Shown in pieces: positions 6,629-52,715 of a stretch of DNA of 64,000 bases (position 1 is the stretch's first letter; each line of letters begins with the position of its first letter). The translations under genes and the position numbers were made by a program. The notes below the pieces were generated by a model. That model made no database searches, was not told where the DNA came from, and worked only from the letters and a program-made list of their open reading frames with translations. The stretch is from contig NZHC01000083.1 of the NCBI GenBank assembly GCA_002689655.1, positions 44,361-108,360 on the forward strand, read 5' to 3'. This DNA is from Rhodopirellula sp. GTDB taxonomy: Bacteria; Planctomycetota; Planctomycetia; Pirellulales; Pirellulaceae.

Positions 6629-6665
6629 GGGCCATGGTGAGGCAGGGAGGGCTTCACCATGGCCC
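6629..6665. repeat. Perfect 12-bp inverted repeat
   Basis: The arms gggccatggtga (6629-6640) and tcaccatggccc (6654-6665) are exact reverse complements around a 13-base loop. No T-run follows on the plus strand, though the sequence turns T/C-rich (ttctctatttgg). It may end transcription of the secreted-protein gene 150 bases upstream, or be a protein-binding site. Confidence 0.7.
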
Positions 6666-6799
6666 TTCTCTATTTGGTCACTCTGCTTTTACTGAATGTA
6701 AAAGCACTCGACGGCACAAGAGAGAAGGGCTGACGAGCCAGATGGTTGATTGGCTCTCAGGAAATCAGATTCGGCGTCCATTAAGGTACAGAGACACCG

Positions 6800-48734: not shown

Positions 48735-48764
48735 TTGACGTTCACGTGCTCTCTTGCCTAACAT
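48735..48764 (+). promoter_or_regulatory. Candidate promoter of leuA leader
   Basis: ttgacg (48735-48740) and taacat (48759-48764) are 18 bases apart and resemble -35 and -10 elements. Counting about seven bases past the -10 element places the transcript start at 48771, the A of the leader-peptide ATG, so the leader may be translated as a leaderless mRNA. Confidence 0.5.
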
Positions 48765-48770
48765 GTTGTT

Positions 48771-48830
48771 ATGCGTGACCAAATTCTCGATCTGTTGCTA
48801 CTGCTAATTGAACGCCAAACAGGCGGGTGA
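48771..48830 (+). CDS. Leucine-rich leader peptide of leuA (attenuator)
   Basis: A 19-codon frame encoding MRDQILDLLLLLIERQTGG, with a Leu codon at position 6 and five in a row at positions 8-12 (ctg ttg cta ctg cta), flanked by two Ile codons. It lies in the non-coding gap between flhB and leuA, in the leuA direction, and is followed by a strong terminator at 48878-48909. This is the classical layout of a leucine attenuator: low charged tRNA-Leu would stall the ribosome on the Leu run and let leuA be transcribed. No ribosome site precedes the ATG, but the candidate promoter would put the transcript start on it. Confidence 0.65.
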   Translation: MRDQILDLLLLLIERQTGG

Positions 48831-48890
48831 TGAGGGTTTGGATAGACCGCTGAGGTCTTTCGCACGACAAAACAACGAACCCGAGTCGCC
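48822..48890 (+). promoter_or_regulatory. Possible antiterminator pairing in the leuA leader
   Basis: gggtt at 48834-48838 can pair with aaccc at 48878-48882, and ggcg at 48822-48825 with cgcc at 48887-48890, which are the 5' arm of the terminator. A small hairpin (agacc/ggtct, 48844-48858) would sit inside this fold. A ribosome stalled on the Leu codons leaves 48822-48838 free; one that reaches the stop at 48830 covers it. The pairing is imperfect, so this is inference. Confidence 0.4.
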
Positions 48891-48909
48891 CAGCGACTCG
48901 GGTTTTTTT
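48878..48909 (+). terminator. Strong intrinsic terminator upstream of leuA
   Basis: aacccgagtcgc (48878-48889) and gcgactcgggtt (48893-48904) are perfect reverse complements around a three-base loop, and a run of seven Ts spans 48903-48909. It lies 47 bases before the leuA start and 306 after the flhB stop. Its place downstream of a Leu-rich leader frame suggests attenuation rather than simple flhB termination. Confidence 0.9.
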
Positions 48910-48956
48910 GTTCTTGTAGCTGGCTAATACACAACTGTTCAAAGGTAATACCAGAA

Positions 48957-50555
48957 ATGTCGCATCCGAATCCGGCCCATGCAGCCAATAGCGATGAAAC
49001 CGGTCAGTCCGAGCCACGAATGATTCGTATTTTTGATACCACTCTCCGGGATGGTGAGCAGTCACCTGGTGCAAGTATGAATCTTGCTGAAAAGCTGGAG
49101 GTGGCCCAGGCCTTGGCTGAGATGGGGGTCGATATTATCGAAGCTGGTTTTCCCATCGCATCACCCGGCGACTTTGAAGCGGTTAAGCAGATAGCCCAGA
49201 CCGTCAGGGGGGCAACGATTTGTGGTCTGGCGCGTTGCAATGATAAGGATATCGACGCTGCGTGGAATGCGGTCAAGTTCGCGCCCAGTTCGCGCATTCA
49301 TGTGTTCTTGGCGACCAGTGCGATTCACCGTGAATTCAAGTTGAGAATGAGCCCTGATGAAATTGTCGAACGGGCTGTTGCTGGTGTGAAGCGTGCTGTC
49401 AGCTATTGTGATGATGTCGAGTTTTCACCTGAGGATGCCTGTCGTACTGAGAACGACTTTTTGTGCCAGGTTGTTGAGGCAGCGATCGACGCTGGGGCGA
49501 AAACCGTAAATATTCCTGATACGGTTGGGTATGCGACACCCGGCGAGATTTATGACCGCTTTCGAATGTTGCAGGAACGCGTGCCGAATATCGGGAAAGC
49601 GGTTGTGAGTACGCATTGTCATGATGATCTGGGAATGGCAGTGAGTAATAGCATGGCCGCCGTTGCAGCGGGTGCGGGCCAAATTGAATGCACCATTAAT
49701 GGAATTGGCGAAAGAGCGGGTAACGCTGCGTTGGAAGAGGTAGTGATGGCGATTCAAACAAGAAATGATTTTTATCGGTGTACTACGAATATCGATTCCA
49801 AGCGTTTGGTTCCGGCAAGCCGTTTGGTAAGTAAAACAACTGGAATTCAAGTGCAGCGTAACAAAGCGATTGTTGGGAAAAATGCGTTTGCGCATGAATC
49901 AGGAATTCATCAGGATGGCATGCTGAAAGAACGCAGCACTTACGAGATCATGTCGCCTGAAGAGGTTGGTTTCTCCAAAACAGATCTGGTGCTCGGAAAG
50001 CACAGTGGCAGAGCAGCATTGGCTGATCGGGCAAAGACACTTGGCTTCACATTGACTGGTGAACAGTTGCAGGTCGTCTTTGAGCAATTCAAGTCATTGG
50101 CTGATAAAAAGAAGGAAATCTATGATGGAGATATCATCGCACTGGTGCAGCAGCAAATTAGTGGGAGTGTTGATGAGCTATGGACACTCGTGGACTATGT
50201 CGTGACCAGCGGAAAGTCACGCCAGCCTCATGTTGAGCTGACCCTGTGCTGCGGTGATGAAGAAGCGACGGAGTGTATTGAATTGGGCGATGGCCCCATT
50301 GATGCAGCTTTTTGGGCCGTCGAAAAAATCACGGGGATTGAAGTGGTCTGCAAAGATTTTCGTGTCCGAAGCGCAACTCTTGGGCGTGATGCGATCGGCG
50401 AGGTGAACCTTGAAGTTGAGCACAAAGGACGTACTTACCGTGGAGTCGGGGTGAGCACTGACAGTGTCGAGAGCACGATTTTAGCAATGCTCAATGCAAT
50501 CAACAGGATCATCTCTGAAAAGTCGCTGCCGCGGGCTGATTCCGCGGGAAGTTGA
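48957..50555 (+). CDS. leuA: 2-isopropylmalate synthase
   Basis: First committed step of leucine synthesis: condenses acetyl-CoA with 2-oxoisovalerate. 532 residues, the long form with a C-terminal regulatory domain where leucine binds. The catalytic barrel starts with RIFDTTLRDGEQSPGASM and holds the metal-binding STHCHDDLGMAVSNS and the glycine-rich CTINGIGERAGNAALEE. The C-terminal part includes GKSRQPHVELTL and RSATLGRDAIGEVNLEVEH. The ATG at 48957 is preceded by AAGG about 14 bases away. Enzyme feedback by leucine plus the leader attenuator would give two layers of control. No leuBCD or ilv genes are in the window. Confidence 0.96.
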   Translation: MSHPNPAHAANSDETGQSEPRMIRIFDTTLRDGEQSPGASMNLAEKLEVAQALAEMGVDIIEAGFPIASPGDFEAVKQIAQTVRGATICGLARCNDKDIDAAWNAVKFAPSSRIHVFLATSAIHREFKLRMSPDEIVERAVAGVKRAVSYCDDVEFSPEDACRTENDFLCQVVEAAIDAGAKTVNIPDTVGYATPGEIYDRFRMLQERVPNIGKAVVSTHCHDDLGMAVSNSMAAVAAGAGQIECTINGIGERAGNAALEEVVMAIQTRNDFYRCTTNIDSKRLVPASRLVSKTTGIQVQRNKAIVGKNAFAHESGIHQDGMLKERSTYEIMSPEEVGFSKTDLVLGKHSGRAALADRAKTLGFTLTGEQLQVVFEQFKSLADKKKEIYDGDIIALVQQQISGSVDELWTLVDYVVTSGKSRQPHVELTLCCGDEEATECIELGDGPIDAAFWAVEKITGIEVVCKDFRVRSATLGRDAIGEVNLEVEHKGRTYRGVGVSTDSVESTILAMLNAINRIISEKSLPRADSAGS

Positions 50556-50641: not shown

Positions 50642-52357
50642 CTAATCATCGGACGATGTAGCCTCTTCGTCACTACTGGACGGTGGGAATTTTAGTTCTC
50701 CCGTGGTTGGGTCAGGTTGAAGCAGTAATGATTCTTCATCGACTTCGAAGGAATCTTCGCCTCTCAGCATGCGAATGTCGGGATTTGTCGATGGCTCGGA
50801 GTCCGTGCCCAGGAGATCCCCTACATCCAATGGCTCTGGATCAATTTCAGACGCGAGTCCATCCGTCGTCGGGTGACGATGTTCGACGGAGTCATCAAAA
50901 AGTTGCACGTCGCCGGCGTTGGCAGATTGAATTTCGTCGTGGCTGGGGAGAGGATCGAGTTCATCATCGCTAATGATCGAGATTACTGCCGGATTTTCTT
51001 CGGACGTGATTGAATCATTGTTGACAGATTCAGTTGATGCTCGTTCAGCATTGTTTTCGGTGAGAGGCCGCGGTCGCGGGAATATCTCATCCACATTACT
51101 TCGTAATATTTGGCGGCCAAGTTCGATTGCACGTTCTTCGCTCCAACCATTTCCTTTGACGAAATGATCCGTGAGGATGCCGGATAGAATCTGCCGGTAC
51201 ATGTCAAACTTGGGCCAGACAAATTCCAGCTTATAGGCATCACTGTAATAGGCAATCTGTTTCGTTTGTGGAACTGCCTCGAGCCTTGCTGTCGCGTCTC
51301 TCGCGATGAATGAAGGTGTGTTGCTATACCACCAGTGTCCATTGGTTATGACATTTGGGAAAATCCATGCGTAACTGACAAGTTCCTGATTCGTGACACT
51401 CGCCAAAACAGAGATCGGGAATTTCACTTGTGGGAATGAGTTGAAGAGTTCGCGATACTGAATCAGGGAAACCCTGCTGTCGTACAGGTCTTGCCCTTGG
51501 TAAACGCCCTCCGGATAGACCCCGCGGTTGACCCCGATCATCAAATCAAATGGCAGGCCGTACTCATCACATAATTCTGCCAGTGTCCAGAACACACTGC
51601 GGGAAAGAGCTGTCTGGTGAGCCGGGTCTGCCATGATGCCATGGAGAAGCACATCGTTCAACGCCGTTGTCGCGCGACCATCACTGATACGTGTGGGGGA
51701 AAAGTCTGGAGGCAAAGAGATCGCACATGCACGTGCTCCACGCCCGACGAAGTGTTCGAACCTTTGACGCAGCGATTCACGAAGATTGGCAAGTGAACCA
51801 TTCAGTTCGATGCCAGTGCATGCGGTCAAACGCTCCCTTGTTTCGGATTTGGAGAGATGGAAAACAAGGTCGTCAGTTCGTAAGCATGGAATGTAAGTAT
51901 CACTGTCAAATCCCTCGAGCTCATCGTCGAAGTCATTGGTCAAGAAAACAGCTTCGACATTACTCTGGTCAAGGACCATCTGAGGCCAGTCAGCAAGTTT
52001 CATCTGCGTTTCAGAGGTTTCGAACACTTCTTCCCAGTTGGATTCATCCAGCCGCTCACCAGTGAAACCAAAAAACTTGCGGCAAATTTCAATCAGCCAC
52101 CGATATTGAGCTGTGTTTGCAAGGGGAGAGAGGTTGGTTACCAACCGTCGGACGAGCTCTCGATGACTGAGACCATCTTCTTCAATTTGATCTTTGGGCA
52201 TTCCAGCTGAATGCGCAAGTTCAGTGTAGTAGTGATATCCAAGTAGATCTGCCAGCGTGTTTGATGCTGGTGCATGAGGATTGATATGAGTGTGTGGATC
52301 GATCAGGCGAATGGAAGCAATTGCTTCGTAGATGGAATCGCGAACGGTATCAGTCAT
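50642..52357 (-). CDS. Amidohydrolase of the glucuronate isomerase (UxaC) family with acidic C-terminal tail
   Basis: 571 residues from an ATG at 52357; a TTG at 52375 is in frame. The N-terminal LIDPHTHINPH supplies the HxH metal ligands of the amidohydrolase barrel, and further family segments include GYHYYTELAHSAGMPKD, LANTAQYRWLIEICRKFFGF, VEAVFLTNDFDDELEGF and VITNGHWWYSNTPSFI. This pattern fits uronate isomerase relatives, which convert glucuronate to fructuronate, though planctomycetes have several divergent paralogues and the substrate is uncertain. The core ends near residue 435; the remaining 135 residues are a strongly acidic, Ser/Pro-rich, unstructured tail absent from typical UxaC of about 470 residues. 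It is convergent with leuA and has no uronate-pathway neighbours. Confidence 0.8.
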   Translation of the reverse strand: MTDTVRDSIYEAIASIRLIDPHTHINPHAPASNTLADLLGYHYYTELAHSAGMPKDQIEEDGLSHRELVRRLVTNLSPLANTAQYRWLIEICRKFFGFTGERLDESNWEEVFETSETQMKLADWPQMVLDQSNVEAVFLTNDFDDELEGFDSDTYIPCLRTDDLVFHLSKSETRERLTACTGIELNGSLANLRESLRQRFEHFVGRGARACAISLPPDFSPTRISDGRATTALNDVLLHGIMADPAHQTALSRSVFWTLAELCDEYGLPFDLMIGVNRGVYPEGVYQGQDLYDSRVSLIQYRELFNSFPQVKFPISVLASVTNQELVSYAWIFPNVITNGHWWYSNTPSFIARDATARLEAVPQTKQIAYYSDAYKLEFVWPKFDMYRQILSGILTDHFVKGNGWSEERAIELGRQILRSNVDEIFPRPRPLTENNAERASTESVNNDSITSEENPAVISIISDDELDPLPSHDEIQSANAGDVQLFDDSVEHRHPTTDGLASEIDPEPLDVGDLLGTDSEPSTNPDIRMLRGEDSFEVDEESLLLQPDPTTGELKFPPSSSDEEATSSDD

Positions 52358-52715
52358 GGATGGAATTTTGGCCACAAGTCAGAAATAGATGGAACCCACA
52401 TCGGCACGAGTTACAGTCCACAGGATACCGATTTTTGGCAACCGGCGGGGTGCCCCGTAGCAACAAGTTTCTCGAGCTTTGGAGGTTCAACAATAGGGTG
52501 AGGAACTCAAACATTCGGATTAGGCATGTTTTGCGTCGCAGAAATCGAGAGGGTTGGTAGCTTTCTTTGGGAATTCATGTCATTTTGCGGTCGCCGCTGC
52601 GCTACAATTAAAAGATGCTACGAAACCGGAACGCCGTTGTAAGATGGGGTGCGTCCCCCTGACACGAGCAGTCTCACTCCACGTCGTTTTCTCTAATGTT
52701 CTCAGCGCTGCCTCA
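52358..52715. other. Divergent intergenic region
   Basis: Between the amidohydrolase gene (minus) and the protease gene (plus). It must hold both promoters. The protease frame stays open upstream of 52716 through this region, but that part does not look like protein. No repeat or structured RNA was noted. Confidence 0.5.

Follow-up and report, generated by a model that had tools for sequence, protein, structure and literature searches.

The leuA gene of a planctomycete is preceded by what we judge, at a probability of roughly 90%, to be a ribosome-mediated transcription attenuator sensing charged tRNA-Leu. In the window (the whole 64-kb stretch of DNA that was analysed), a short frame with a run of leucine codons is followed by an intrinsic terminator and then by leuA. 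The same layout recurs before leuA in relatives, where leader and terminator pair better with their own partner than under permutation, on average; both results support the leucine attenuator proposed in the original prediction. Leader, terminator, alternative pairing, conservation, codon bias, and promoter position were all demonstrated computationally.

Organization of the leuA upstream region

The features of the region, with the basis of each call, are as follows.

48735..48764, + strand: sigma-70 type promoter, TTGACG (-35, 48735-48740), 18-nt spacer, TAACAT (-10, 48759-48764); read from the window, a promoter scan, and same-genus leaders
48771..48830, + strand: leucine leader peptide frame MRDQILDLLLLLIERQTGG followed by a stop, probably leaderless, 19 codons, six Leu; window reading and relatives
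48792..48806, + strand: run of five Leu codons, CTG TTG CTA CTG CTA, the candidate regulatory codons, two of them the rare CUA
48825..48840, + strand: region 2, antiterminator 5' arm, with the leader stop UGA (48828-48830) inside it; folds and pairing tests
48844..48858, + strand: local hairpin AGACC-GCTGA-GGTCT between regions 2 and 3; RNA folds
48876..48891, + strand: region 3, antiterminator 3' arm, overlapping the terminator 5' arm; folds and pairing tests
48878..48909, + strand: intrinsic terminator, 12-bp stem, 3-nt loop, seven T; window reading and same-genus loci with leader and terminator
48957..50555, + strand: leuA, 2-isopropylmalate synthase, the regulated gene; passes NCBIfam cut-offs NF002086 and TIGR00973

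Reading the window sequence again confirmed the arrangement first described, namely a 19-codon frame with six Leu, five of them consecutive, then a 12-bp terminator with seven T, then leuA. The terminator stem is formed by AACCCGAGTCGC (48878-48889) and GCGACTCGGGTT (48893-48904) around the loop CCA, with the T run at 48903-48909; because two of these T are already counted among the 12 pairs, five of the seven are unpaired. The hairpin at 48844-48858 is possibly a pause hairpin or a spacer. An FlhB-like gene lies before leuA (flhB end, 48571) and a convergent gene after it, while leuC of this genome is on a different contig of the draft assembly.

On both strands of the window, the combination of Leu frame (ATG start, 8 to 60 codons, at least 5 Leu in 7) and terminator is unique; two further Leu frames occur, both without a terminator. 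The promoter scan returned one site in 801 bases, against 0.6 in shuffles, so a match in a single sequence is weak as evidence and its weight comes from its constant position in relatives. Across the window genome, the promoter-ATG pattern had 4 matches versus 11 for a reversed control pattern, and only the one at leuA stands before a Leu leader. A DNA search of the same genome found no second copy of the attenuator, returning only short matches, several of them to the terminator portion of the query sequence.

A T-box or metabolite-binding riboswitch would also sit ahead of a biosynthetic gene and carry a terminator. Rfam includes a leucine leader family; at E ≤ 1, neither that nor any other fitting family matched the window region, which makes a riboswitch exceedingly improbable. 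The only Rfam matches were C0465 (E = 1, minus strand) and CLRN1-AS1 (E = 0.76, within leuA), both far under cut-off, and ten relatives likewise gave no fitting family.

Distribution among planctomycetes

Upstream regions of 213 leuA genes were collected (same genus, 20; rest of the family, 103; order, 3; class, 26; phylum, 61). Each was scanned for an ATG frame, 8 to 60 codons long, in which at least 5 of 7 residues are the same and which has a terminator downstream. The family sample covered 108 of 109 genomes with leuA, the omitted one having a match that begins inside the gene at a contig edge; the phylum sample comprised 98 of 129 matches, picked before the upstream sequence was looked at. 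A further set of 60 new class members, from those listed among 239 class matches, was picked by family to cover little-sampled families; here the search spanned 420 nt and also accepted GTG and TTG starts.

Leucine frames with a terminator were found in 72 of the 213 regions, and frames of all other amino acids together in one (glycine). The antisense strands of these regions gave none for Leu and one for glutamine, and ten Markov shuffles gave no Leu frame with a terminator. Under a looser 4-of-7 rule, the count was 86 for Leu versus 11 for all other amino acids together. When the terminator was not demanded (5 of 7), 109 regions had a Leu frame, against 1 in antisense and 0 to 4 in five shuffles. 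The further set agreed, with a Leu frame in 33/60 at 5 of 7 (antisense, 0) and in 52/60 at 4 of 7 (antisense, 2).

The comparison of related leuA leaders that was first suggested did not refute the attenuator: 18 of the 20 same-genus loci carry leader and terminator under the automatic rule. Of the remaining two, L100 shows a leader and an imperfect terminator by eye, and L101 has lost both. Examples are MRNQTFDLLLLLIERQTGG, MRNPTLNLLLLLLERQTGG, and MTIQPLLLSLLLLRRQTGG in the genus and MFTPALLLLLLSLLALGS, MNQTLRLLALLLLPHIG, and MKTNNIALLLLLSLGCCQP in more distant relatives. The layout reaches beyond the genus into the family and the class and into part of the remaining phylum: outside the class, 14 of 61 regions meet the leader rule, and clear leaders there include L245, L263, L267, L271, L273, and L276. 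No leader was found by the rule in 91 of the 213 regions (2 genus, 33 family, 1 order, 8 class, and 47 phylum). Leaders of family f89, a group of large genomes that may be Gemmataceae, resemble those of L057 and L038.

The short frame might also make a functional small protein, or the attenuated RNA might serve as a trans-acting small RNA. The leaderless trpL/rnTrpL of Sinorhizobium meliloti offers a precedent (peTrpL/rnTrpL): that attenuator RNA begins at the ATG of its own leader frame, as is proposed here, and acts in trans (PMC7298713), although it concerns tryptophan and trpE(G). Against both roles, leaders from different families have little in common beyond their Leu run and the pairing region of the RNA, and their peptide ends vary. 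We consider either role unlikely, and it would add to attenuation rather than replace it.

Compared with ilvB and leuC, the layout appears to be specific for leuA. In the same genus, neither the 25 ilvB-type loci (19 of them over the family cut-off) nor the 20 leuC loci have a Leu frame with a terminator upstream. Leu frames lacking a terminator do occur, one at 5 of 7 before ilvB (L322) and others at 4 of 7 before ilvB in L320 and before leuC in five loci (L330, L331, L337, L338, and L349).

The gene order raises another explanation, in which the hairpin terminates the upstream flagellar genes, the Leu-rich frame is incidental, and the leuA promoter lies further down. Next to leuA, an FlhB-like match is present both in the window and in 17 of the 19 other loci of the genus (at ≤35% identity in four; L001 was left out of this test), as well as in some near relatives, and the hairpin could act alike as a terminator for flagellar genes or as an attenuator. 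Outside the genus, however, 33 of 43 leader-bearing loci keep the leader with no flhB match near leuA (flank up to 1.5 kb), the conserved promoter sits upstream of both leader and terminator, and frames rich in other amino acids are nearly absent from this position. We therefore regard a flagellar terminator as very improbable.

Predicted competing RNA pairings

In the window, the antiterminator pairs GGGUGAU-GA-GGGUUUG (48825-48840) with CGAACCC-GA-GUCGCCC (48876-48891), two 7-bp helices flanking facing GA dinucleotides. Two motifs had originally been proposed for its 5' arm: gggtt (48834-48838) is part of the arm that pairs best, at 48825-48840, which replaces ggcg (48822-48825) as the 5' arm. 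In a fold that left out the 3' half of the terminator and all of the leader but the last 12 nt ahead of its stop, each of the 18 genus loci folded had region 2 paired with the terminator 5' arm. Leaders of the wider family often end in UAG with GGG after it, and GGCCnUAGGGG faces CCCCGAGGCC. The leaders of several relatives (L103 and L122-L125) run past region 2 rather than stopping within it.

A 28-nt window was slid along 114 leaders and scored for complementarity to the locus's own terminator arm. The maximum fell on the stop codon, with -17.4 kcal/mol for offset 0 and -16.1 for offset -8, compared with about -6 to -9 at greater distances; averages for offsets -160 to -96, most likely spoiled by a run of N in L181, were not used. 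The duplex of region 2 with region 3 in these leaders averaged -17.5 kcal/mol for cognate pairs versus -13.7 (standard deviation, 0.27) when arms were permuted among loci. Single loci gave a weaker signal than this average: 25/114 cognate pairs ranked in the top 5% when set against non-cognate pairs (median rank, 0.13), and 64/114 beat 95% of letter shuffles. The difference held among 39 mutually dissimilar leaders (-16.5 versus -12.8 permuted; 0 of 20,000 permutations as low) and in the 37 of 60 further-set loci that have a hairpin (-19.1 versus -17.1; 4 of 20,000 as low). The excess of pairing in the fixed window was small in family f5 (-19.5 versus -18.0) and absent in family f89 (-16.0 versus -15.6 shuffled), whose best-pairing window lies further upstream (median offset, -20). 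On average, then, these tests of cognate pairing support an antiterminator predicted to share an arm with the terminator.

Covariation was scored on an alignment of 23 sequences (18 from the genus and 5 near relatives) that proved too conserved to be informative: the antiterminator had 90.9% of cells paired with no two-sided change, and shuffles scored as high; the terminator had 97.1% paired with one two-sided change, and 60 of 500 shuffles scored as high. Folding, another check first suggested, found the stretch more stable than all 200 shuffles (z = -3.9), mostly owing to the terminator. A protector (1:2) helix between the leader start and region 2, present in the single-sequence fold of the window, found no support among the relatives: only 48% of its cells are paired in the 23 sequences, and slid versions do equally well.

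Translation of the leader could instead be read out by Rho-dependent termination or by control of leuA translation, both of which have been considered for actinobacterial leaders without terminators, with the hairpin as an accessory. Terminator-less leaders make this conceivable: those before actinobacterial leuA are described as having no obvious terminator and a pairing between the Leu run and the Shine-Dalgarno sequence instead (PMC1262725), and in some distant planctomycete loci (L280, L288, and L291) a hairpin comes right after the Leu run and no terminator was found. The window and many relatives, in contrast, combine a T-tailed intrinsic terminator with an antiterminator predicted to compete with it, and such a read-out seems quite improbable.

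Promoter position and predicted transcript start

The -10 element of the window ends six bases before the leader ATG (48771), and the original prediction placed the RNA start at that ATG; the constant distance in relatives supports this. Counting only promoters with a perfect TTGAC and TAnnnT, 16 to 19 nt apart, we found that 56 of 122 leaders have one in the 40 nt ahead of an in-frame ATG. In 42 of the 122, the -10 element ends 6 to 8 nt before the ATG (28 at 6, 13 at 7, and 1 at 8), compared with 0.3 promoter matches per shuffled replicate at any distance, with one ATG per leader. Within the genus, the motif lies 6 to 7 nt before the ATG in 16 of 18 leaders.

The average distance from -10 to the start in Streptomyces is 6.3 nt (PMC8079986); since the usual distance fits the gap, RNA would start at or beside the AUG, and leaders with a promoter 6 to 8 nt before the ATG are probably leaderless. 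A Shine-Dalgarno-like core is present in 1 of these 42 leaders versus 11 of the other 80. Low use of Shine-Dalgarno sequences in Planctomycetes (one genome) has been linked to leaderless mRNA and/or ribosomal protein S1 (PMC5397173). Leaderlessness is not universal, because many other leaders (e.g., L142-L148) have no promoter by the strict rule, which found one in only 3 of the 60 further-set loci.

Codon usage

Leaders are enriched in CUA among their Leu codons relative to leuA itself: 43/109 versus 26/565 in the genus (available parts of leuA), 143/502 versus 11/1,016 in the rest of the family, 44/141 versus 1/544 in the class and order, and 11/97 versus 2/99 in the rest of the phylum. Codons ending in A are also raised in leaders for Arg and, in the genus, for some other residues, so the bias may be partly compositional; the effect for Leu is larger. 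The Salmonella leu leader has three CUA codons, their replacement by CUG lowers its sensitivity, and CUA is in theory the most suitable control codon in Escherichia coli (PMC1183508). A codon preferred in leaders and rare or near-absent in leuA repeats the Salmonella pattern in a second phylum, a finding relevant to the selective-charging theory of codon choice (PMC1183508).

Model of regulation

Stalling, termination, the leucine response, and the exact RNA 5' end are what we infer from this anatomy and its conservation. Transcription would start at or beside the AUG of the 19-codon leader, and the first ribosome would for that reason probably load on a leaderless 5' AUG. With Leu-tRNA scarce, above all the reader of CUA, the ribosome would stall within the Leu codons, some 30 nt ahead of the stop, leaving region 2 (48825-48840) free to pair with region 3 (48876-48891); the terminator would not form, and leuA would be transcribed. 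With Leu-tRNA plentiful, the ribosome would reach the stop codon and cover region 2, the terminator (48878-48909) would form, and RNA polymerase would stop ahead of leuA. In the genus, the middle Leu codon and the stop are 30 nt apart (median); given the size of the ribosome footprint, region 2 would be left clear by a ribosome stalled there and covered by one at the stop. The amino acid sensed would be the product of the pathway to which the controlled gene belongs, leuA being over NCBIfam cut-offs.

Relation to described attenuators

The leu genes of enterobacteria form the leuABCD operon, and in Salmonella and E. coli a short leader, a competing antiterminator, and an intrinsic terminator precede leuA. 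The planctomycete leader differs in standing before leuA alone, in belonging to another phylum, in having no Rfam match, and, in the window's genus, in its probably leaderless start. It shares with leuL of both species a CUA-rich Leu run in a short leader.

Leucine leader peptides transcribed leaderless are also described in Streptomyces lividans, where leuL1 precedes leuA and leuL2 precedes leuS; leuL2 has a hairpin and a U stretch downstream, but leuL1 is reported without a typical terminator, whereas leuA of the window has both leader and terminator (PMC8079986). The actinobacterial LEU element is likewise a Leu-run leader before leuA, but it is defined by a pseudoknot and by a stem that joins the Leu run to the Shine-Dalgarno sequence of leuA, with no obvious terminator (PMC1262725), whereas one is present here.

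The planctomycete leader thus appears to be classical attenuation of a known kind. Literature searches on leader peptide, attenuation, leuA, and planctomycetes found no description of the four together, in line with the original prediction, which knew of none; the attenuation survey of Lopatovskaya et al. (2010) might include planctomycetes. Leader genes near structural genes have been reported in many phyla, including Planctomycetes, in a study whose main text names neither leuA nor leucine (PMC4833913).

Transcription-translation coupling

As regards SIGNIFICANCE, attenuation requires a ribosome that follows the polymerase within a few dozen bases. Because translation of the leader must keep up with RNA polymerase, a conserved attenuator is sequence evidence for coupling of transcription and translation, and the one before leuA implies such coupling at that gene. 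In Gemmata obscuriglobus, a spatial separation of the two processes has been suggested (Gottshall et al. 2014, via PMC5394234 and PMC5287468). One of our loci (L032), from a metagenome-assembled genome labelled Gemmataceae, has a Leu leader and a GC-rich hairpin before leuA; their complementarity reaches -20.1 kcal/mol at best versus a mean of -14.2 along the leader, and the hairpin, with a poor T run, fails the terminator rule.

We put at even odds a broader proposal: that coupled-ribosome leucine attenuation is ancestral to Planctomycetia and occurs in other classes too, including at least one Gemmataceae-labelled genome; that translation tracks RNA polymerase at leuA despite the segregation suggested for Gemmata; and that a second, unrelated Leu element following the first in many Pirellulaceae provides tandem control. 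The leuA leader offers a simple reporter system for the question of coupling, and if it works in Gemmataceae, translation would be coupled to transcription there at the leuA locus at least.

Within the genus, L101 is the only leuA locus without a leader, and the region, approximately 260 bases before leuA, contains an inverted repeat (TAGGCCGGAACAAGCG...) together with what looks like a decayed terminator. At five other leuA loci (L103 and L122 to L125), the leader frame continues through the conserved region 2, the 5′ arm of the antiterminator (GATGAGGGTTT), and the stop codon lies further downstream, as if the former one had been lost.

Similar short Leu-rich frames (MQRSVFCLLFLSKLPRF and MQTNVFCLLLLPILSRFNC) lie ahead of ilvB in two genomes of the genus, with no terminator called after them by the automatic rule:
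L320, −103: window genome, bases before the ilvB match
L322, −102: same-genus genome, bases before the ilvB match

Elsewhere in the window, another short ATG frame rich in Leu (MALLYLVTLLLLNVKALDGTREKG) is located at 6659–6733, with no terminator after the frame. The product of the gene convergent with leuA matches glucuronate isomerase over its residues 13 to 432 of 577 and carries a long acidic C-terminal extension beyond the match:
50642–52375, minus strand: convergent gene; its glucuronate isomerase match scores well below the cut-off

At four distant planctomycete leuA loci, the Leu run leads directly into a hairpin that has the stop codon in its loop (as in TGCGCC...TAG...GGCGCA); terminator searches there mostly found none, and the read-out is perhaps different.

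Leu run into hairpin (bases before leuA)
L280, −127
L287, −160
L288, −174
L291, −120

About 32 other Pirellulaceae carry a second element, which in most cases lies downstream of the attenuator terminator and ahead of leuA. It consists of three Leu codons with synonymous variation, often inside [ST]-R-[AS]-x-L-L-L, and is usually followed after 3 to 5 nt by a GCCGGN...NCCGGC hairpin.

Examples of the second element, among others (bases before the leuA match)
L168, −91
L174, −92
L188, −89
L128, −90
L130, −47
L207, −101
L211, −126
L213, −118

A general search of the upstream regions (Leu-Leu-Leu plus a hairpin with a stem of at least 6) matched 44 of 213 in sense, some of these being first leaders or distant loci, versus 1 in antisense and 0 to 1 in shuffled sequences. 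Rfam returned no fitting family for ten second-element loci. The second element is possibly a tandem second leucine control of leuA.
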